From positions 1-32,338 of the IMG/VR virus record IMGVR_UViG_3300021132_000008: a stretch of DNA of 32,338 nt; one strand, given 5' to 3'. Numbering within the stretch: the first letter of the stretch is position 1; each line of letters begins with the position of its first letter. This document shows positions 4,848 to 30,345 of this stretch, one piece after another. The position numbers and the translations under genes were made by a program. Origin of the DNA: a virus. The notes below the pieces were generated by a model. The model saw only the letters and a list, made by a program, of their open reading frames with translations, made no database searches and was not told the DNA's origin.

Positions 4848-5565
4848 TCAACCTATTCAGACTAACCACGTTCCCGCAGATAATGCTTCGGACGTAGGAC
4901 GGATGGACTTTATTGTCCGGTCTGCTTTATCGGGTCTTAGAACTGCAATTCCAGTAAAAGTTGTTGCCGTTACAAATAACGGTGGAGTTTCGGCTATTGG
5001 TCATGTTGACGTTCAGCCCTTAGTCAGCGCAGTTGACGGTAATGGTCAAGCTTGGGCGCATGGAATTATTCACAATGTCCCATATATGCGAATTCAAGGT
5101 GGATCGAATGGCGTAATTCTTGATCCAGTTGTCGGTGACATTGGCATAGGTACGGTTTGCGATAGAGACATTTCAACGGTAAAAGCTACTGGAGCAGTTG
5201 CTGCTCCCGGATCTAATCGTAAAAATGATATGTCTGATATGGTTTATTTGATGACCATTATTGGACAAGCACCTAGTCAATACATACAATTTAATAGCTC
5301 AGGAATTACCATACTTTCTCCCACCAAGGTTACAATAAACGCACCTAATGTGGAAATTGACGCTTCGTCTGCTTGCACAATAAACGCTCCAAATATTGTC
5401 TTAAATGGTGCGGTACAACAAGGCAGTGGATCGTATTCAGGAAATGCTACATTCGGTGGCTCAATGACTGTAACGGGTGACGTTACGGCTGCGGGTACAA
5501 GTTTGCATACTCATAAACATGGTGGCGTACAAACAGGTGGCGGTCAAACAGGAACTCCAGTGTGA
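4831..5565 (+). CDS. Baseplate spike / tail-tip protein (gpV/Gp138-like)
   Basis: A 244-residue protein. Residues about 35-115 form an OB-like domain (IPVKVVAVTNN, HVDVQPLVSAVDGNGQ, DPVVGDIGIGTVCDRD) typical of Gp138/gpV spikes. Residues about 155-220 are short beta-helix-type repeats (TINAPNVEIDASS, CTINAPNIVLNG). The end carries HTHKHGG with His226, His228 and His230, like the metal-binding tip of P2-type spikes. It trimerises under the hub and pierces the outer membrane. Its TGA is overlapped by the GTG of the following homing endonuclease. Confidence 0.85.
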   Translation: MSQSTNQPIQTNHVPADNASDVGRMDFIVRSALSGLRTAIPVKVVAVTNNGGVSAIGHVDVQPLVSAVDGNGQAWAHGIIHNVPYMRIQGGSNGVILDPVVGDIGIGTVCDRDISTVKATGAVAAPGSNRKNDMSDMVYLMTIIGQAPSQYIQFNSSGITILSPTKVTINAPNVEIDASSACTINAPNIVLNGAVQQGSGSYSGNATFGGSMTVTGDVTAAGTSLHTHKHGGVQTGGGQTGTPV

Positions 5566-6038
5566 ATCAGGATCTATTAAAAAATACCTTTGAATATCGT
5601 GAAGGAGAGCTTTATTGGAAAATAAAGCCTTCAGTTCGTACAAATATTGGCGATATGGCTGGATCTTCAAAAGGAATCTATAAAAAGGTTCAAGTTTTTG
5701 GCAAAACCTATCAAATTCATAGACTTATTTTTATGATGTTTAATGGGTTTTTTCCAAAAAATGTAGATCATATTGATGGTAATAAGCTAAATAATAGAAT
5801 TGAAAATTTAAGAGCAGCCACGACTTCTCAAAATATGTGCAATGTCAAAATTCCATCATCAAATACTTCAGGTATTAAAGGTGTTAGCTGGCATAAACAA
5901 AGAAAATCATGGCAAGTTCAGCTTCGTGTCTCAGGAAAGTCTACTTACTTTGGATTGTTTAAAGATATAGAATTGGCAGAATTGGTTATTTTAGAGGCTA
6001 GAAACAAATTTCATGGTAAGTTTGCGAGAACAGTATGA
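5562..6038 (+). CDS. HNH homing endonuclease with AP2 DNA-binding domain (copy 1)
   Basis: A 158-residue protein with an HNH nuclease motif: His53 in QIHRLIF, then DHIDGNKLNNRIENLR at 69-84. This is followed by an AP2/ERF-type DNA-binding domain (GIKGVSWHKQRKSWQV, then FGLFKDIELAELV; about 104-142). This is the classic free-standing phage homing endonuclease. It starts with GTG overlapping the spike stop (GTGA) and stops in TGA overlapping the next ATG, so it is slotted into a baseplate operon with no gap. It is visibly more A+T-rich than its neighbours, suggesting separate origin. Confidence 0.9.
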   Translation: MNQDLLKNTFEYREGELYWKIKPSVRTNIGDMAGSSKGIYKKVQVFGKTYQIHRLIFMMFNGFFPKNVDHIDGNKLNNRIENLRAATTSQNMCNVKIPSSNTSGIKGVSWHKQRKSWQVQLRVSGKSTYFGLFKDIELAELVILEARNKFHGKFARTV

Positions 6039-6403
6039 CGATAATTCACAATACCTTACTGCTAGATCAAACTGCTTGGGACTTGGTTCTCGATGTCAAT
6101 GGAAATATTGCATTAGCTGGCGCACCTTACGCAATAGCGCAAGACGTTGCTTCAGCGACTCGTACATTTTTAGGAGAATGCTGGTACGACACTACTCAGG
6201 GAATACCCTATTGGCAACAAATTCTTGGGGAATTTCCTCCTTTGCAGTACGTTGCTGAGCAACTTCAGGATGCAGCTTTAACAGTGCCTGACGTGGCTGC
6301 AGCGCAAGCAACCTTTACGTCCTTCCAAAATCGTTCTTTGGCTGGACAAATTCAAATTATAGATACGGATGGAGTCACAAATAACGTGGCTTTTGGTGGC
6401 TAA
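6035..6403 (+). CDS. Baseplate wedge protein, gp25/W-like
   Basis: A 122-residue protein resembling the GPW/gp25 family: a short N-terminal strand (LDQTAWDLVLDVNGNIAL), then DVASATRTFLGECWYDTTQGIPYWQQILG and LQDAALTVPDV. Wedge proteins of this family connect sheath and baseplate and start sheath polymerisation. In T4 and P2 they precede the J-like gene; here a homing endonuclease gene sits between them. Start ATG overlaps the upstream endonuclease stop (ATGA). Confidence 0.85.
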   Translation: MTIIHNTLLLDQTAWDLVLDVNGNIALAGAPYAIAQDVASATRTFLGECWYDTTQGIPYWQQILGEFPPLQYVAEQLQDAALTVPDVAAAQATFTSFQNRSLAGQIQIIDTDGVTNNVAFGG

Positions 6404-6404
6404 A

Positions 6405-6896
6405 ATGAATGATTTAAAACTTTTAAGCCAAGCTCAAGAAAATTTTTTTTATAAAAATGGAAATTTGCATTGGGCTAAAAAAACTGCTGAAAGAGTCAAA
6501 ATTGGCGACATTGCAGGAACCATGACAACTAATGGGTACATTAGAGTTATTTTGGGTGGAAAGCTTTATAGGGCTCACAGGATTATTTTTTTAATGCACT
6601 ATGGATATTTGCCTAAATTAATAGATCATGTTGATGGAAACCCGTCAAACAATCTTATAGAAAATTTAAGAGAAGCTACTGATAGTCAAAATCAACATAA
6701 TCGAAAAATAAACATTAATAATGTTTCCAAAACAAAAGGTATATCTTGGGAAAAATCAACAAAAAAATGGAGAGTTGATTTGGGCGTTAACGGCAAAAGA
6801 AAACATTTTGGAAGATTTTTTGACCTAGAATTGGCTGAATTGGTGGCAATAGAGGCAAGAAATAAATACCATAAACAATTCGCAAGGATTCAATAA
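6405..6896 (+). CDS. HNH homing endonuclease with AP2 domain (copy 2)
   Basis: Start chosen at ATG 6405, one base after the upstream TAA, giving 163 residues; an earlier in-frame ATG at 6369 lies wholly inside the wedge gene. It carries His58 in YRAHRIIF and DHVDGNPSNNLIENLRE at 74-90, then an AP2 domain (KGISWEKSTKKWRVDL, GRFFDLELAELV). It is clearly related to the copy at 5562-6038 over the whole length (compare ELAELV..EARNK[FY]H..FAR) but diverged, so the copies are not a recent duplication. Strongly A-rich base use compared with neighbours. The ribosome site of the next gene (AAGGA) lies inside its last codons. Confidence 0.9.
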   Translation: MNDLKLLSQAQENFFYKNGNLHWAKKTAERVKIGDIAGTMTTNGYIRVILGGKLYRAHRIIFLMHYGYLPKLIDHVDGNPSNNLIENLREATDSQNQHNRKININNVSKTKGISWEKSTKKWRVDLGVNGKRKHFGRFFDLELAELVAIEARNKYHKQFARIQ

Positions 6897-22425: not shown

Positions 22426-22975
22426 GGCACGAACTTCAAAGCTTACCGAAGCTCAATGGCACGACATTGAAAAACGAATGCTTGCGGGCGAGAAGGCTGC
22501 AGTGCTTGCTAAAGAGTACGGGATTGACCGGGCTCAGATAACTCGCAAGATTACTCCCAGTGTGCGGAATGTAAAAATCGTTGCAAATCAATTACTTAAT
22601 GCTGAGGCAGCTTTTAAGCAGCTTCCAATTACGCAACAAATCGCAACAATTAGCCTAATGGATGAGCTAAGAGCGATCAGTACCAACCTAGCCAGTGCAG
22701 CTAAGTACGGTGCAGTCAATGCCAATATCCTTTCGGGAATGGCAAACCAGCAGCTCAATACGGTCAATGAGGAAAATCTCTTGACGGGCGAGGGAATGAT
22801 TGCACTCAAGACGGTAAGCGCATTACAGGACATGGCAAACGAAGCCAGCAAAGTTCCCCTTGGATTGCTCAGCGCAAACAAGGATCAAATGCAAAAGATT
22901 ACAAACCCGCAGAATTCAGATCTACGGGAAATGACTGACGAGGAACTCTTTGCAATCGCAAGCCGAGGCAGCTAA
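22424..22975 (+). CDS. terS: Terminase small subunit-like protein
   Basis: A 183-residue protein directly before TerL. The N-terminus has a helix-turn-helix for DNA recognition (EAQWHDIEKRMLAGEKAAVL, then YGIDRAQITRKI). The middle is helical (oligomerisation) and the C-terminus acidic (SDLREMTDEELFAIA). The small subunit binds the packaging site and hands the DNA to TerL. Overlaps TerL by 26 bases. Identity rests on position and architecture. Confidence 0.8.
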   Translation: MARTSKLTEAQWHDIEKRMLAGEKAAVLAKEYGIDRAQITRKITPSVRNVKIVANQLLNAEAAFKQLPITQQIATISLMDELRAISTNLASAAKYGAVNANILSGMANQQLNTVNEENLLTGEGMIALKTVSALQDMANEASKVPLGLLSANKDQMQKITNPQNSDLREMTDEELFAIASRGS

Positions 22976-24401
22976 GGAGCTGCTGATTAGGCGTAAAGCC
23001 CGATCAGACATCCTTCAGTATGCAAACGCCATAGAAGTTCCAGGTCGACCTATGACGGACGATCCTGATACAGAATTCTTTGAGCCTATCGAAACCACGA
23101 TGGCTCATCATCATCGGCTGCTTCTCAAGAAGCTAGACGAGGTAGCAAATACAAAACATGGGCGCATGATGGTATTCATGCCCCCGGGCTCGGCAAAGTC
23201 GACTTATGCCTCAGTAGTATTCCCCAGCAAGTACCTTGGGGCTGCTCCTAATCGCAAAGTCATCCTTGCCAGCTATGGTGACGATCTAGCTAGAAAGCTT
23301 GGTAGGCGCACCCGATCAATCATTAAGCAGCCTAGATACCGAGGAATTTTCGGAACTGGGCTTACTGTCGAGTCTTCGGCAGCGCAGGAATTCGCACTGG
23401 ACAACGGTAGCGAATACATGGCTTGCGGTATTCTCGGGGGCGTTACTGGTAATCGAGCTCATGGAATCATCATTGATGACCCTATCAAGGGGCGTGAGCA
23501 AGCTAATTCGGACACAATCCGTAATAAAACCTATGACGCTTTCGAGGATGATCTAAAGACCCGTTTGATACCGGGAGGCTGGATTGTCCTCATTCAAACC
23601 CGTTGGCATGAAGATGACCTAGCAGGTCGAATCCTTCCCGATGGCTGGAAAGGTGAATCCGGCAAGATCTTATGCAAGGACGGCAATTACTGGGAAGTGG
23701 TCTGTTTACCCGCTAAATGCGAAAACGAGGGCGATCCTCTTGGCAGACAGATTGGTGAATACCTTTGGACCGAATGGTTCGATGAGAAACACTGGGCTCA
23801 ATTTGAAAGTAATCCGAGGACGTGGGCAGCTCTTTATCAACAAAGACCTGCTCCACTAGACGGAGACTTGTTTAAACCCGATCAAATACAGATCGTGGAC
23901 GCAATACCTGCTGGAGAAATTAAATGGTGTAGGGGCTGGGACTTAGCCAGCACTACGGACGGTGACTATACGGCAGGAGGAAAGCTTGGCAGATTATCAG
24001 ATGGCAGGTTTATTATTTCGGATATGGTTCGACTGCGTGTGGGTCCCGATCAGCGTGACGCAGCAATGGTTAATACGGCTGCGCTTGATGGAAGGTCGGT
24101 CAAAGTAAGTATTCCGCAAGATCCGGGACAGGCTGGTAAAACGCAAGTCTTATACCTAACTCGAGCATTGTCAGGATATACTGTCAAAAGCTCACCCGAA
24201 TCGGGCGACAAAATCACGAGAGCAGAGCCGTTTGCTGCTCAAGTTAATATTGGTAACGTATTAATGCTTCGAGGCGATTGGAATGCACCCTTGATAAACG
24301 AAATGCGAATATTCCCTAATGGCTCACATGATGACCAAGTGGACTCGCTATCAAGAGCGTTTTCTGAAATAATGATTCCTCGCAAGAGTTTCTTTGGATA
24401 G
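22950..24401 (+). CDS. terL: Terminase large subunit
   Basis: A 483-residue packaging motor. The ATPase domain has Walker A MPPGSAKST at 77-85 and Walker B IIIDDP at 173-178, and the adenine/coupling region includes LIQTRWHEDDLAGRI. The nuclease domain has RGWDLAST (Asp331) and GSHDDQVDSLSRAF (Asp461, Asp462, Asp465) for metal-dependent cutting. Start is TTG 22950 with GAGGAA upstream. It docks on the portal, encoded seven bases downstream. Confidence 0.97.
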   Translation: MQSQAEAAKELLIRRKARSDILQYANAIEVPGRPMTDDPDTEFFEPIETTMAHHHRLLLKKLDEVANTKHGRMMVFMPPGSAKSTYASVVFPSKYLGAAPNRKVILASYGDDLARKLGRRTRSIIKQPRYRGIFGTGLTVESSAAQEFALDNGSEYMACGILGGVTGNRAHGIIIDDPIKGREQANSDTIRNKTYDAFEDDLKTRLIPGGWIVLIQTRWHEDDLAGRILPDGWKGESGKILCKDGNYWEVVCLPAKCENEGDPLGRQIGEYLWTEWFDEKHWAQFESNPRTWAALYQQRPAPLDGDLFKPDQIQIVDAIPAGEIKWCRGWDLASTTDGDYTAGGKLGRLSDGRFIISDMVRLRVGPDQRDAAMVNTAALDGRSVKVSIPQDPGQAGKTQVLYLTRALSGYTVKSSPESGDKITRAEPFAAQVNIGNVLMLRGDWNAPLINEMRIFPNGSHDDQVDSLSRAFSEIMIPRKSFFG

Positions 24402-24407
24402 GATTTT

Positions 24408-27173
24408 ATGTTTAAGTGGCTAAAAGGAAAGACAGAGGTTCAACAAGAACCGATCAAGCCCAAGGCTCGTAAAAGCCTATTCAGCACTCATGCGTTCGAT
24501 ATGCTCGATCCCGATGCTAAAAGATTCAAAGTCGCTGACACCTTTTCAGCACTTTTAAAGCAGCAGCCTTCGCTCTATGGCGAATACGCAATGGATGATT
24601 CCAGCAATGGCGTTGCTAATTTCAAAATGTTTGCTGCTGGCAGCAATAGCGTTTCCGATGTCGTAGTAGGCTGGTACGCTTCCCAAGGATTTATCGGAGC
24701 GCAGCTCTGCGGTATCTTGGCTCAAAACTGGCTGATTAATAAAGCTTGCTCAATGCCAGCCGATGATGCCATTCGTAAGGGCTACAACGTAGTTACCGTT
24801 GACGGTGACGAACTGGACCCTGAAGCCGTTAAGATCATCAAAGCTTACGACAAAGCCTTCAAGCTGAACTTCAATATGCGTGAGTTCATCCGCAAGGGTC
24901 GCATCTTTGGTATTCGTGTGGCAATGTTTAAAGTCATTTCGACTGATAAAGACTATTACGAGAAGCCTTTCAACATTGATGGCGTGACTGCTGGTTCCTA
25001 TAAAGGAATCGTACAAGTTGACCCGTACTGGACAGCTCCAATGCTGGACGGTGCTTCAGCTTCACAGCCTGACACCCTGCATTTTTATGAGCCGACTTGG
25101 TGGATCATCAACGGCAAAAAGGTTCATCGTAGCCATTTAATTATTTTCCGTCATGCTGAGCCTGTAGACGTGCTCAAGCCTCAATACATTTATGGCGGTG
25201 TGCCACTGACTCAACAGTTGATGGAGCGTGTATACGCTGCAGAGCGCACCTCTAATGAAGCTCCACAGTTGGCAATGTCCAAGCGTACAACCGTTTGGCT
25301 AACCGACATGGAAGCCGTTATGAGCGACACCAACGCAGCAATCGGAAGATTGCAGCAATGGGCTGCCTATCGTGATAACTACGGTGTAAAGCTTGGCGAT
25401 AAAGAAGGTGACGAATTCCAGCAATTCGATACCTCCCTAGCCGACTTTGATGCCCTCATCATGACTCAGTATCAACTCGTGGCTGCGATTGCAGGTGTGC
25501 CAGCGACTAAGCTGCTCGGCACTTCTCCAAAAGGCTTTAATGCCACTGGCGAATACGAAGAAGCAAGCTATCACGAGCTGCTCGAATCGATCCAGTCAAA
25601 CGATCTGACCCCATTCGCTGAGCGTCATCATCAACTGGTTATCAAAGCATACGTTGAGCCACAGCTCAAGAAGAAGTTCGATCTCGAAACTACTTTGAAC
25701 TGGCTCCCACTCGATACACCTACTGCCGAAGAATTGGCTCAAACCAATCTGCTCAAGGCTCAAACTGGACAGACTCTTATCGGTTCCGGTGCTATTAGCA
25801 GCGAAGATGAGCGTCAACGTGTAGCAACTGACAAGCAGTCCGGCTACAACGAAATTGGCATTCTTGAAGATCAAGACCCTGAAGGTGAAGAATTAGCGGA
25901 GGAAGATTTCGAGAAAGTGCAAGACGGTATTTGGACTCCATTGCCAAAGAATGAAGAAGTCTCATACAAGACAACTGACGGAGACTTTGCCGATCCTGAA
26001 GATGGCGAAGGTCCTTTGGGCAAGACATTTCAAGTAACTCAAGACAAAGATCCCTGCTGGGAAGGTTACGAGCAATTTGGAATGAAGGACAAAGACGGCA
26101 AACAAGTTCCTAATTGCGTTTCTCAAGATGATGCTGAATTCAAAGAAGAAGATCATCCTCGTGCAAAAAACGGACAATTTGGCTCAGGCGGGGCTAGTGC
26201 AGCTCCTGAGTCTAAAGAGAGTAAAAAAAAAGAAGTAAAAGGTGAATCTCATGGATCTGCTGAAAAGTCCTCTGAGTCTGCTCAAAAAGAGCTTCCTTTG
26301 GAGGAAAAGACAGGATCAGTCCAAGCGCAAGCAAAAGGATTCCAAAAAGTCAAAGAGCTTCCTAACGGTGGATATGTCGACCAACATGGATTCGAGCATT
26401 CACCCGGACTCAATGAGCATGAGCGAAGTATTGAAGACGGCTTTTACGAACAAATCCTAAAAGATACGCCTAAGCTAATTGCTGCGTACAAGGATACATT
26501 CGGTCACGTTGTAGATCCTGACCTTGTTAAAAAGCTAGATCCAAGCTTTGCTAAAGATCCATCATTAGCTGCAGCCGTACATGAGCCAAGCTCTTATCTG
26601 TCTAAAGTAATTTGGAAAGATGCTCTCGAGCAAAAAGCTAAAAACAACGATACCGAAGCCACAATGTTTACGGCTGGCGGTAGCGGATCAGGCAAGTCCG
26701 AATCTGAAAAGATGGCTCGTGACCTGCTCGGTCTTAAAGAAGATGCGTTGACCTTTGATTCTGTATTGGGCAACTTCAAGTCCGCTGCTGACAAAATCGA
26801 TCAAACCTTGAGCATTACCAAGGGTAACGTAGACATCGTTTACACCAATGCGTCTCTTGACCTTGCCGTATTGCTTAATTTGAAGCGCAGCCGGACAGTC
26901 CGATTGGATACCCAGCTTGACGCTCATATCAAAGCTTCTGCAAACATCAAGAAGATTGCCGATCATTACAAGGGCAATAAGCGAGTAAATATTACTATCG
27001 TCAACAACAACACTGGCGATCCTCCTTACCTAACCGAAGGCAAGATCGACCAAGTTCCTGACTACACTGACAGAGCTGCTATGCGGGAGAGAATGATCTC
27101 ATTCGCTAAGAAAATTGTCGCTGAAGGCAGGATCAAGGATGGCGATAAAAAGCTCAAGATGCTGCTAGGTTAA
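24408..27173 (+). CDS. Portal protein (DUF1073-type) fused to a zeta-like P-loop kinase domain
   Basis: At 921 residues this is about twice normal portal length. Residues ~1-490 are a DUF1073-type portal (WYASQGFIGAQLCGILAQNW, GKKVHRSHLIIFRHAEPVD, AIAGVPATKLLGTSPKGFN). Residues 548-571 hold the DPCWEGYEQFGMK..VPNCV motif, and ~580-590 DHPRAKNGQFGSGG, both common tails of phage head proteins, then a charged linker. Residues ~660-921 form a kinase-like domain with P-loop GGSGSGKS at 757-764, then TFDSVLGNFKSAADKIDQTL and DIVYTNASLDLAVLLNLKRS, resembling zeta-toxin domains of phage polyvalent proteins. Its last 20 bases overlap a convergent gene. Confidence 0.85.
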   Translation: MFKWLKGKTEVQQEPIKPKARKSLFSTHAFDMLDPDAKRFKVADTFSALLKQQPSLYGEYAMDDSSNGVANFKMFAAGSNSVSDVVVGWYASQGFIGAQLCGILAQNWLINKACSMPADDAIRKGYNVVTVDGDELDPEAVKIIKAYDKAFKLNFNMREFIRKGRIFGIRVAMFKVISTDKDYYEKPFNIDGVTAGSYKGIVQVDPYWTAPMLDGASASQPDTLHFYEPTWWIINGKKVHRSHLIIFRHAEPVDVLKPQYIYGGVPLTQQLMERVYAAERTSNEAPQLAMSKRTTVWLTDMEAVMSDTNAAIGRLQQWAAYRDNYGVKLGDKEGDEFQQFDTSLADFDALIMTQYQLVAAIAGVPATKLLGTSPKGFNATGEYEEASYHELLESIQSNDLTPFAERHHQLVIKAYVEPQLKKKFDLETTLNWLPLDTPTAEELAQTNLLKAQTGQTLIGSGAISSEDERQRVATDKQSGYNEIGILEDQDPEGEELAEEDFEKVQDGIWTPLPKNEEVSYKTTDGDFADPEDGEGPLGKTFQVTQDKDPCWEGYEQFGMKDKDGKQVPNCVSQDDAEFKEEDHPRAKNGQFGSGGASAAPESKESKKKEVKGESHGSAEKSSESAQKELPLEEKTGSVQAQAKGFQKVKELPNGGYVDQHGFEHSPGLNEHERSIEDGFYEQILKDTPKLIAAYKDTFGHVVDPDLVKKLDPSFAKDPSLAAAVHEPSSYLSKVIWKDALEQKAKNNDTEATMFTAGGSGSGKSESEKMARDLLGLKEDALTFDSVLGNFKSAADKIDQTLSITKGNVDIVYTNASLDLAVLLNLKRSRTVRLDTQLDAHIKASANIKKIADHYKGNKRVNITIVNNNTGDPPYLTEGKIDQVPDYTDRAAMRERMISFAKKIVAEGRIKDGDKKLKMLLG

Positions 27174-27393
27174 TCCTGCGCTCCTCAAGGATCATTCGGA
27201 CGTGCTCACGATCAAGTGAGTCTCCAATGACCGGGGAGCCACAGCGATAAGCAGCCCCGGCTTTTGATTGAAGAAAACGGATTGCCATTTTAATTTCGTC
27301 CATTGTGACCCCGAGATCGTAAACCCCGTTTTTGCCGTAGAAGCTATAAACGTAATTGGCGAAGACTTTAAGTTCTTGGTATGACATTGCCAT
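27154..27393 (-). CDS. Small hypothetical protein, 79 residues
   Basis: ATG 27393 with AACGAAAGGA (27401-27410, one mismatch to the shared leader). SYQELKVFANYVYSFYGKNG, GVTMDEIKMAIRFLQSK and HVRMILEERRI indicate a helical soluble protein. Its 3' end overlaps the portal 3' end, tail to tail, by 20 bases. Last gene of the leftward island operon. Function unknown. Confidence 0.7.
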   Translation of the reverse strand: MAMSYQELKVFANYVYSFYGKNGVYDLGVTMDEIKMAIRFLQSKAGAAYRCGSPVIGDSLDREHVRMILEERRINLAAS

Positions 27394-27408
27394 TTTGAGA
27401 TCCTTTCG

Positions 27409-27660
27409 TTAGTTGCTCATTGCGTCATAAGCTGCTTGGTTTTCGTAACGGATGCAGCCTTCTCCGTTATACATTGGACCGACTAATCCAGCGAAAACTG
27501 GCTGACCGATCAACTCACTGCGTAAGTAGCCCCGGTCTTCAAAACGATTGAACTCGTAACCACGAACTGCCATTGCTTCAATGCAGTCCCCTACGTTTGC
27601 GACTTCGATGTCAAAGCCACCCCAGCCGTTTTGATCTAATGCAACAATTTGGTATCTCAT
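27409..27660 (-). CDS. Small hypothetical protein, 83 residues
   Basis: Start ATG 27660, with CACGAAAGGA at 27667-27676; an upstream in-frame extension would run through that leader. MRYQIVALDQNGWGGFDIEV, then GYEFNRFEDRGYLRSELIG: alpha/beta, acidic. Function unknown; part of the island between portal and MuF. Confidence 0.7.
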   Translation of the reverse strand: MRYQIVALDQNGWGGFDIEVANVGDCIEAMAVRGYEFNRFEDRGYLRSELIGQPVFAGLVGPMYNGEGCIRYENQAAYDAMSN

Positions 27661-27679
27661 GATTTTTCCTTTCGTGGAA

Positions 27680-27874
27680 TTAATTGACTCGGTACTGCTC
27701 GATTGCGATTGCCATTGCTGCCTCGGCTTCCTCTGCATTGCCACCAGCGACTAAGACGTTACGGGCTGCAGCGTCAATGTAACGGAGGTCCATGATGTCA
27801 AACTGGATACCGTTGCCAATGCGATTGAAGATCTGATTGACTTGGCGGTCAAGGGCTCTATTTGCGTTTCTCAT
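27680..27874 (-). CDS. Small helical protein, 64 residues
   Basis: ATG 27874 with CACGAAAGGA at 27882-27891. MRNANRALDRQVNQIFNRIG then YIDAAARNVLVAGGNAEEAE: helical, Ala/Asn-rich. First gene after the promoter at 27914-27941. Function unknown. Confidence 0.7.
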   Translation of the reverse strand: MRNANRALDRQVNQIFNRIGNGIQFDIMDLRYIDAAARNVLVAGGNAEEAEAAMAIAIEQYRVN

Positions 27875-27913
27875 TTTCGTTTCCTTTCGTGGGTAACTGA
27901 AGACTACAACTTA

Positions 27914-27941
27914 ATAATATACTAATTAAGCATGGTGTCAA
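27914..27941 (-). promoter_or_regulatory. Leftward early-type promoter
   Basis: Leftward: consensus TTGACA, 16 bases containing ATGCTTAATTAG, TATTAT. A TTGTAG lies about 7 bases after the -10, and CACGAAAGGA follows just before the gene. Closely matches the promoter at 15971-15998 over -35, spacer and -10. Confidence 0.7.
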
Positions 27942-27971
27942 GCGATATTTGCATAAACACCACAATTATTT

Positions 27972-28184
27972 TTATTTGTTGGCAAGGCACTCGGAGCAGT
28001 TGCATTCGATGACCTCAAGCTTTACGGCTTTGCGTAAGTCTGCCATGCTGTCAAAACCTTTGACGTGGACTAGATCATCCGAGAACCGAAAGCCATAAGG
28101 CAGGTTCAGGATGTAGCTTGGGTAATCTGAATATTCCCCATCGACATCCACGTCCCGGGCAGTGTTCAATTTGTATTTAGCCAT
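27972..28184 (-). CDS. Small hypothetical protein, 70 residues
   Basis: ATG 28184 with CACGAAAGGA at 28191-28200. MAKYKLNTARDVDVDGEYSD, then SYILNLPYGFRFSDDLVHVK, ending with a Cys pair (ECNCSECLANK) that could bind metal. Ends before the next leftward promoter. Function unknown. Confidence 0.7.
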   Translation of the reverse strand: MAKYKLNTARDVDVDGEYSDYPSYILNLPYGFRFSDDLVHVKGFDSMADLRKAVKLEVIECNCSECLANK

Positions 28185-28203
28185 TTTGATTCCTTTCGTG
28201 GGA

Positions 28204-28344
28204 TTAAGCTTGAAGTTCTTGCATTGCTTGCTGCGCTGCTGCAGCTCTACGGACATGACCTTTAGCCATTGCTACGGCATAGATCACTTGTAATTCTAGG
28301 ATTCCTCGGATTTCCAAGTATCCATAACGGGCTAGTGCTTCCAT
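28204..28344 (-). CDS. Small Ala-rich helical protein, 46 residues
   Basis: ATG 28344 with CACGAAAGGA at 28352-28361. MEALARYGYLEIRGILELQV then HVRRAAAAQQAMQELQA: helical and amphipathic. First gene after the leftward promoter at 28389-28414. Function unknown. Confidence 0.65.
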   Translation of the reverse strand: MEALARYGYLEIRGILELQVIYAVAMAKGHVRRAAAAQQAMQELQA

Positions 28345-28547: not shown

Positions 28548-29147
28548 ATGAGAGTTCAAGAACGTTGCAGATTTGTCCCTGAAGGTTATGTTTTGTTGGC
28601 TCAAGACGAGGCTTTGGGTATTGAGGTTTTTGGAGATCCTGAGCGCAATGTCGCAAGGGGCTTCAGTGGTCGCAGAAATCGTGCTGACTTTGCCTACCGT
28701 TTCAACAATGCTGAGCGTATGAATGCTTACATTGCTGAATACATTGCCGGAATTGTTGCCCAGCGTGATCGTGTTGCCCAGCGTAGAGCTGAGCGTGTTG
28801 CAGCTAACCGTAATGCCGTTGTAAATGTCGGTGACATTTTCCAAGCGATGTGGGGTTACGATCAAACAAATATTGACTACTTTCAAGTTGTAGCGGTTAG
28901 TGGTCAAATGATGGAAGTTCGTGAGATCGGCTGCTTGAGCGAAGGTAACGGATTGCCTGACCAAGGCGTGTGCGTTCCAGCTCCTAACAATTTCAGGGGC
29001 GAGGCTAGAAGGGTTCGTATCCAAGCAAGCGGTGAAAGCGTGTTTTTCCGTTTCGCAAGCTATGCCAATGCTTACAGGATCAATCCTGTTGCAGTAGTGG
29101 CTGGGGTTCCGATTTACGAGCAAGCCAACTGGACAGCTTACGCATGA
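28548..29147 (+). CDS. Hypothetical protein, 199 residues, early-type expression
   Basis: Own promoter at 28481 and CACGAAAGGA leader. The N-terminal part has QERCRFVPEGYVLLAQDEAL; the middle (~60-95) is a very Arg/Ala-rich helix (IVAQRDRVAQRRAERVAANR); the C-terminal part has VVNVGDIFQAMWGYDQTNID, FQVVAVSGQMMEVREIG and FFRFASYANAYRINP. The last domain looks like a beta domain seen in other phage hypotheticals. No function assigned. Its TGA region overlaps the next ATG. Confidence 0.75.
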   Translation: MRVQERCRFVPEGYVLLAQDEALGIEVFGDPERNVARGFSGRRNRADFAYRFNNAERMNAYIAEYIAGIVAQRDRVAQRRAERVAANRNAVVNVGDIFQAMWGYDQTNIDYFQVVAVSGQMMEVREIGCLSEGNGLPDQGVCVPAPNNFRGEARRVRIQASGESVFFRFASYANAYRINPVAVVAGVPIYEQANWTAYA

Positions 29148-29356
29148 TGACCAACAAACGAAACAGAGGGGGGATGGGATACGTCCCCACTGCTCAGGAA
29201 ATTATTGAGGCACGAGGGCATTTATCCCAATCCAAATCAGCCAGTATGATCTATACTACTCAAGCACGTTGGAGTAATTACGAGACTGGCAAAAGCCGAA
29301 TGCACCCGGCATATTGGGAGCTATTCCTTAGAAAGAAAGGAGAAGAAAATGCCTAA
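29144..29356 (+). CDS. XRE/Cro-type helix-turn-helix protein
   Basis: A 70-residue protein: PTAQEIIEARGHLSQSKSAS then TTQARWSNYETGKSRMHPAYW, a XRE-type helix-turn-helix (the WSNYETGK segment is typical of the recognition helix and following turn), ending LFLRKKGEENA. Start overlaps the upstream stop (ATGA). Possibly controls the early promoters of this island. Role is from motif and context. Confidence 0.75.
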   Translation: MMTNKRNRGGMGYVPTAQEIIEARGHLSQSKSASMIYTTQARWSNYETGKSRMHPAYWELFLRKKGEENA

Positions 29357-29531
29357 AAAAATGAGTTTTGAAGAAGCTCGTGCCAAGTGGCTCAAAGAGC
29401 TTAATGGTCGAGACATGGCTGAATATGGCAATGATCTTGAAAAAGAGCAAGACGCAAAAGTGGCAAAGCTTATGACTCCTGAGTACCTAGCTAGTTGGGA
29501 AAAGGCAGACAAAGATGCCGAAGGCAAGTAA
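29349..29531 (+). CDS. Small charged helical protein, 60 residues
   Basis: ATG 29349 with AAAGGAGAAGAAA upstream, overlapping the XRE gene by 8 bases. FEEARAKWLKELNGRDMAEY then EKEQDAKVAKLMTPEYLAS: highly charged and helical. Overlaps the MuF gene by 17 bases. Function unknown. Confidence 0.65.
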   Translation: MPKKMSFEEARAKWLKELNGRDMAEYGNDLEKEQDAKVAKLMTPEYLASWEKADKDAEGK

Positions 29532-30345
29532 GAAGCCTGTAAATGGGATAGTCGGTGGAGCATTAAGACCTAATGCAAGTATTGCTGCCGACTACGCCAA
29601 GCCAACAGTAGATCTGATCGGCTTGATGTCTCGTGACGTTGAAAGACAGTTAAAAAAACTATTTAAAGAAAACAAGTTCGGGTTTGCTGAGGATGCTTCA
29701 ATCTCCAGTCAAGCCCGAATCCTTTTGAGTTGGCTGCTTGAGAAGTGGTCAAAACGCTTTAATGCTATCGCTAAGAGCTCTACGGAGCGCATGATAGAGC
29801 GCACTATTCGGAATTCAGCCGTAACGCTAGGAATGTCCTTAAAGGATGCCAGCGAGGATTTTAAGATCGATACTTCCTTCAGGAATGCTCAGATCAACGA
29901 TGTAATTAAAGCCAGCACTCAAGAAGCTGCAAACCTTATCAAAATAATTCCGCAAAAGTATCTTGCCGAAGTCCAAGGGCAAGTCATGCGAAGCATTACA
30001 ACTGGAAAGGGAATGGAGGATTTAGTCCCGTTCCTGACCAAAAAATACAATGGCAATATTCGTCATGCGAGAAATGTTGCGCTGGATCAGACTCGCAAGG
30101 CGTATCAATCGATCAATACCTCAAGACTTAAAACGCTTGGAGTAAAGAAGTTTATATGGATACACTCAGGCGGTGGTAAGGAGCCACGAGTGAATCATAT
30201 TAGAATGTCGGGTAATGAATATTCATTCGACAAACCACCCGTAATTGGGGTAATGTACGGGGAAGAAGTGCGGGGATTACCCGGTGATTTACCAAATTGC
30301 CGTTGTATTTGCAAACCAGTCATCAACTTTGATTTAGACGAATAA
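29515..30345 (+). CDS. MuF-like minor head protein
   Basis: A 276-residue protein with the Mu F signature near the end: NIRHARNVALDQTRKAYQSI, then KFIWIHSGGGKEPRVNHIRM, DKPPVIG and GDLPNCRCICKPVINFD. The N-terminal half is helical and binds portal or lumen. A few copies sit inside the capsid at the portal and may be ejected. Normally it lies right after the portal; here an early-gene island of about 2.3 kb separates them. Confidence 0.93.
   Translation: MPKASKKPVNGIVGGALRPNASIAADYAKPTVDLIGLMSRDVERQLKKLFKENKFGFAEDASISSQARILLSWLLEKWSKRFNAIAKSSTERMIERTIRNSAVTLGMSLKDASEDFKIDTSFRNAQINDVIKASTQEAANLIKIIPQKYLAEVQGQVMRSITTGKGMEDLVPFLTKKYNGNIRHARNVALDQTRKAYQSINTSRLKTLGVKKFIWIHSGGGKEPRVNHIRMSGNEYSFDKPPVIGVMYGEEVRGLPGDLPNCRCICKPVINFDLDE

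Follow-up and report, generated by a model that had tools for sequence, protein, structure and literature searches.

Why would the portal protein of a tailed phage end in a kinase? The question is raised by a single gene in a 32-kb virus record of a freshwater phage (IMG/VR record IMGVR_UViG_3300021132_000008), whose full 32,338 nucleotides were analysed and are referred to here as the window. A preliminary description, made from the letters of the sequence, had read the first half of the gene product as a portal and its end as a zeta-toxin-like kinase domain. Here, we confirm the fusion, assign the kinase to a known subclass and describe an exchangeable slot at the portal C-terminus, together with a small partner gene, g60, which the preliminary description overlooked and which accompanies the zeta domain from carrier to carrier. 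We propose that the kinase and g60 may form a toxin-antitoxin pair of which the toxin is built into the virion.

A zeta-toxin kinase fused to a portal protein

The fusion is encoded by one uninterrupted frame of 921 codons, as previously described, and its parts are arranged in the window as follows:

24408..27173 (+): portal-linker-zeta-kinase fusion gene, 921 amino acids (aa), single open frame, 0 internal stops
24702..25766 (+): portal core, PF06381, residues 99-453 (E 6e-81; E217 and Pa193 portal matches)
26049..26180 (+): linker with DPCWEGYEQ...VPNCV (from residue 548) and the boundary motif ExxHPRxxxGxF (residues 580-591)
26373..27170 (+): zeta-kinase passenger domain, residues 656-921 (profile, AlphaFold model, structural match, ratio of nonsynonymous to synonymous substitution rates (dN/dS))
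26520..26522 (+): D705, predicted catalytic base, equivalent to ng_zeta1 Asp56, invariant in 31/31 sequences
26676..26699 (+): phosphate-binding loop (P-loop) GGSGSGKS, residues 757-764, with K763 equivalent to ng_zeta1 K115
26892..26894 (+): R829, equivalent to ng_zeta1 Arg181, invariant in 31/31 sequences

The portal assignment is borne out by PF06381, which matches with 272 bits against a gathering score of 33.8, and by the cryo-electron microscopy (cryo-EM) portal structures of Pseudomonas phages Pa193 and E217 in the PDB, which match residues 73-491 at E about 1e-132. No stop codon separates the two halves of the gene. The same unbroken portal-zeta frame recurs in many other contigs, where the zeta domains are 56-100% identical; a sequencing or assembly artefact is therefore rejected.

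The Pfam Zeta_toxin family (PF06414) scores 15.5 and 17.6 bits on the window protein, below its gathering score of 22.3, and distant relatives of the window domain pass this cut-off with 27.7-59.1 bits. A profile of 31 sequences, searched against PDB sequences, retrieves the structures of gonococcal ng_zeta1 at E 8e-22 and no other match below E 0.07. The AlphaFold model of residues 656-921 (predicted local distance difference test score, pLDDT, 92.5) adopts a P-loop kinase fold and superimposes on ng_zeta1 (6epg) with a structural Z of 23.8 across 247 residues, the match ending at ng_zeta1 residue 269. The next structural matches, Streptococcus pyogenes zeta (Z 11.9), AvrRxo1 (Z 11.6) and PezT, all lie at Z 11-12, and Foldseek concurs. 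These matches place the window domain in the Neisseria ng_zeta1 subclass of zeta-toxin kinases.

In this subclass two sequence blocks have changed places, which puts the catalytic base Asp56 ahead of the P-loop (K115); the substrate is contacted by Lys59, and the active site contains Arg175 and Arg181 (PMC5923241). The profile alignment pairs Asp56, Lys59, K115 and Arg181 with D705, K708, K763 and R829. D705, K763 and R829 are invariant, and position 708, the equivalent of the Lys59 that binds uridine diphosphate N-acetylmuramic acid (UDP-MurNAc), is Lys in 28 of the 31 sequences and Arg in the remaining 3. The preliminary description placed the P-loop correctly and took motifs downstream of it as the zeta-type signature; since D705 precedes the P-loop, those were not the key ones. 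With a dN/dS of 0.10-0.17, the zeta domain is under purifying selection. Because of the fold match, the invariant D705, K763 and R829 and the low dN/dS, the domain is very probably an active kinase. By analogy with ng_zeta1, its activity would be the 4'-phosphorylation of UDP-sugars, and nicotinamide adenine dinucleotide (NAD) or another molecule is a possible substrate instead. The window protein ends after the kinase domain and has no OB-fold domain as in the gonococcal protein; that domain does not define the subclass and, outside gonococcal zetas, is reported from a single Eikenella homologue (PMC5923241).

On which side of the portal would the kinase lie? The C-terminus of the E217 portal forms a barrel that projects into the head (PMC10329688), and residues 529-765 of the Pa193 portal are without density (PMC11042391). 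Because the portal C-terminus of these phages points into the head, we infer that a long linker holds the zeta domain within the capsid, in up to twelve copies per head. Of the two placements considered in the preliminary description, homology favours the interior of the head over the one outside at the motor. In the tail region without density in Pa193, the E217-type portal of Pbunavirus SL1, which equals the Pa193 portal in length, has an inorganic pyrophosphatase at residues 635-753 (PF18823, E 4e-43).

An exchangeable C-terminal slot

We surveyed this slot in portals about 79-95% identical to the window portal, using loci of our collection (designated by L and a number). The tail is absent or short (16-76 aa) in some, and otherwise comprises zeta, an ADP-ribosyltransferase (ART; L105, E 5e-15), a probable RelA-like domain, a 'YRVAEREG' domain or others. 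The passenger of L097, L100 and L106 is probably RelA/SpoT-like as read from its sequence, with a match to a PHROG head-morphogenesis family as support. A gene resembling helix-turn-helix (HTH) proteins stands behind the portal at these three loci, where the stretch between portal and muf holds no clear same-strand ATG frame as an antitoxin candidate, only short TTG-start or antisense frames. The 'VYRVAEREG...' domain occupies the slot in L014, L037, L099 and L086, often in tandem with zeta.

Closely related carriers differ in what they hold. The portal cores of L115 (ART) and L037 (YRVAEREG plus zeta) and those of L105 (ART) and L119 (no passenger) are 97-99% identical within each pair, and the portals of L004 and L031 are 99.3% identical while their zeta domains are 65% identical. 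Conversely, the portals of L041 and L043 are 80% identical and their tails past the second linker motif are practically identical as protein and 99.4% identical as DNA. The portal C-terminus is therefore an exchangeable slot, and the module is swapped between carriers.

The motif ExxHPRxxxGxF stands at most module boundaries and occurs twice in two-module tails. Recombination may take place at it, a protease may cut there, or both may happen. A search with the linker among isolate phages returned mostly hypothetical proteins of T4-like cyanophages that match its DPCW part, and the HPR part was reached by one among the matches listed. The stretch DPCWEGYEQxGMKxKxGxxVPNCV (window 26049-26120) also occurs in a large gene after MuF in L047. 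A second gene with ExxHPRxxxGxF (L045:4816-5505) lies directly upstream of a free-standing zeta gene and perhaps encodes another packaged effector.

The zeta domain is not confined to this portal family. It is fused to a second family of portals (L025, L039, L044) or forms a gene of its own that immediately, or nearly so, follows a tail-less portal of that family (L030, L034, L036, L047). It is also found on MuF-like proteins (L051-L059, PF04233 being just below cut-off for L053), within a NUDIX-zeta-DUF2213 protein (L060/L061) and on large polyvalent-type proteins (L064, L066-L068, L167). No relatives of the window domain were found in plasmids, and the search of bacterial genomes returned a single polyvalent-type giant from a Burkholderiales metagenome-assembled genome.

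A partner gene that tracks the zeta domain

Downstream of the fusion gene lies the candidate partner:

29349..29531 (+): g60, candidate antitoxin of 60 aa, predicted helical, tracking zeta across carriers

The three helices predicted for it are not specific. A g60 profile run against the small frames of all loci in the collection at that stage gives matches with E<0.01 at zeta loci exclusively. A g60 gene is near 25 of the 30 distinct zeta sequences with at least 2.5 kb downstream, compared to none of the 48 zeta-less portals (17 of them with at least 2.5 kb downstream). Where the whole portal-to-muf stretch is covered, it is found behind 11/11 zeta portals versus 0/28 others, and the reverse search starting from g60 finds zeta in those contigs that extend far enough upstream. 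The five zeta sequences that lack it among the 30 are divergent.

The association persists when the carrier changes. On MuF carriers the g60 frame overlaps the zeta stop codon or directly adjoins it, and in L044 and L047 it begins within 60 nt of that stop. Among the divergent exceptions, L063 has a weak homologue that overlaps the zeta stop. In L060 and L061, an antitoxin-like frame (6614-6826 in both) is nested in +1 directly behind the zeta domain, inside the larger gene, and shares 18/32 residues with the free-standing gene of L063. The identities at codon positions 1, 2 and 3 are 22/32, 24/32 and 13/32; third positions are the most diverged, as expected from selection acting on the antitoxin frame. 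A weaker nested candidate, also in +1, follows the zeta domain in L064 (6539-6808). Different small frames overlap the zeta stop in L018 and L069, and L049 has no recognisable antitoxin-like small frame. Because this small partner gene tracks the zeta domain, the two probably form a toxin-antitoxin pair, with g60 as the cognate antitoxin, rather than the packaging-linked enzyme also suggested in the preliminary description.

The fusion sits in a head-gene neighbourhood, just behind probable terminase genes and ahead of a MuF head gene:

22950..24401 (+): probable large terminase, adjoining the portal gene on its upstream side (from position and sequence reading)
29144..29356 (+): g70, HTH-like gene of 70 aa (sub-threshold HTH_31 match), present at zeta loci and at RelA-like-passenger loci
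29515..30345 (+): MuF-type head morphogenesis gene, toxin-free, overlapping the 3' end of g60

A regulatory role is possible for g70. Between portal and MuF lies a cluster of small genes, mostly antisense (window 27154-28256 on the minus strand and 28548-29147 on the plus strand). Homologues of this cluster are found downstream of many zeta portals; none were detected downstream of zeta-less portals, most of which have muf directly after the portal. Elsewhere in the window, two related frames that resemble HNH-type endonucleases (5562-6038 and 6369-6896, +) lie between late structural genes.

Proposed role, alternatives and known relatives

The account we favour starts from what was observed: a domain of kinase fold joined to a portal, kept under purifying selection with its catalytic residues conserved, exchanged as a module between carriers and co-occurring with g60. 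Each subunit of the dodecameric portal would carry a flexibly linked zeta-type kinase within the capsid, as placed from E217 and Pa193. The portal-kinase subunits would be produced late, together with the g60 antitoxin, which would silence the kinase in the producing cell until the heads are sealed. On infection, a cut in or close to the ExxHPRxxxGxF linker would probably release the kinase, which would enter with the DNA, free of antitoxin. With ATP it would phosphorylate UDP-activated cell-wall sugars at the 4'-OH, as homology predicts, turning them into dead-end metabolites and halting wall synthesis in the newly infected host or in a rival infection. We give this reading, a virion-delivered, wall-poisoning portal kinase with g60 as its antitoxin, a probability of roughly 0.55.

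Several points weigh against it. The portal ring itself is not ejected, and delivery would therefore require cleavage. The alignment of 31 sequences contains no conserved counterpart of ng_zeta1 Arg175. In the window, g60 and the upstream portal gene are not neighbours but stand 2.2 kb apart, and for the L041/L043-type and L025 zeta genes no g60 was found within the available stretch (up to about 2.5 kb). Searches of PDB sequences and Pfam returned no relevant relatives of g60, and no homology to a solved epsilon or any other solved antitoxin was detected. Independent portal pairs are also few, two on well-supported branches and four in all, and a formal test of zeta/g60 independence on the portal tree was not significant, with too few pairs.

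Could the kinase instead act in the cell that makes it? Late free portal subunits would then phosphorylate wall precursors and aid lysis, with g60 setting the timing and the location in the capsid being incidental. Surrounded by head genes, the portal gene is presumably expressed late, expression of ng_zeta1 lyses Escherichia coli (PMC5923241), and a partner gene would have to prevent early lysis. Cargo nevertheless fits better with a head-facing portal end and with a zeta domain that is also borne by further virion-type proteins, MuF-like and giant polyvalent-type ones among them. Portals 93-99% identical moreover swap zeta for other domains or go without, and we consider a role in lysis unlikely. 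An equally small share of our confidence goes to a virion-delivered kinase with another substrate, such as NAD, nucleotides or a nucleic-acid or defence-signal molecule, which would act in counter-defence. The NAD kinase AvrRxo1 has the same fold and the slot also holds ART and pyrophosphatase, but ng_zeta1 is by far the better structural match (Z 23.8 versus 11.6) and the Lys59 position is Lys or Arg in 31/31. Since Arg175 is not conserved, the specificity may still differ from that of ng_zeta1.

A structural tail or a packaging-linked ATPase at the portal, with g60 as an assembly chaperone or adaptor, is very improbable. A P-loop on a portal could hint at a role in the motor, and the 3' end of the window g60 overlaps the MuF head gene. 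However, close portals exist with only 16-76 aa of tail, the domain has a zeta-kinase fold with invariant catalytic residues, and g60 accompanies it onto unrelated carriers. The fold and the tail-less close relatives likewise disfavour the packaging motor ATPase itself.

How does this system compare to known ones? The closest is ng_zeta1/ng_epsilon1 of Neisseria gonorrhoeae (PDB 6EPG/6EPH/6EPI), which shares the whole-domain fold, the Asp before the P-loop, the P-loop Lys, the Lys59 and Arg181 equivalents and a small partner gene. Unlike ng_zeta1, the window kinase is fused to a portal, lacks the OB-fold domain and Arg175 and has a predicted activity; g60 has no detectable sequence relation to ng_epsilon1. 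The portal half is orthologous to gp19 of E217 and Pa193 (PDB 8FVH, 9B41), with a head-pointing barrel and a C-terminal tail unseen in cryo-EM, whereas the tail of the Pbunavirus SL1 portal is an inorganic pyrophosphatase and not a kinase. In the MuF polymorphic toxins (Jamet 2017, PMC5576092) a variable C-terminal toxin is likewise borne by a portal-adjacent head protein, as is zeta on the MuF-like proteins of L051-L059; in the window, by contrast, the carrier is the portal and MuF is a separate, toxin-free gene.

Effector domains fused to portal and MuF proteins have already been published (Iyer 2017, PMC5512222; Iyer 2022, PMC9503650), among them the portal-inorganic pyrophosphatase fusion of BcepF1 and zeta-like kinases, which are reported on conjugative-element proteins and, in phages, as fusions with MuF (PMC5512222). 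These polyvalent-type portal fusions resemble ours in being portal-borne enzymes predicted to be packaged and injected. Together with the pyrophosphatase in the same slot of E217-type portals, they run counter to the earlier view that an enzyme-bearing portal is uncommon. The accessible parts of both papers contain no zeta on a portal, no swaps between near-identical portals and no domain-tracking partner gene. Our literature search, whose coverage leaves out most subscription journals and preprints, found no zeta-portal fusion or linked antitoxin. Portal-effector fusions are thus known as a class, and the zeta variant appears to be new.

We tentatively extend the proposal to tailed phages at large, with odds slightly short of even. 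These phages would integrate whole toxin-antitoxin pairs into virion assembly, with twelve portal kinases per head, an antitoxin left behind and a toxin armed by the opening of the virion. The module would be swapped among head proteins at a conserved linker, and some antitoxins would lie out of frame behind the kinase domain in the same gene. For the predicted but untested idea that phages inject enzymes fused to head proteins, the portal kinase offers a tangible case, in which the enzyme class and the catalytic residues are known and an antidote can be proposed. If g60 is an antitoxin dedicated to the kinase, this would account for the making of a wall-poisoning protein without premature death of the producer cell. 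The portal, usually seen as a ring with a purely mechanical role, becomes an interchangeable carrier of cargo, a view that may bear on the C-terminal third absent from the E217 and Pa193 portal maps.
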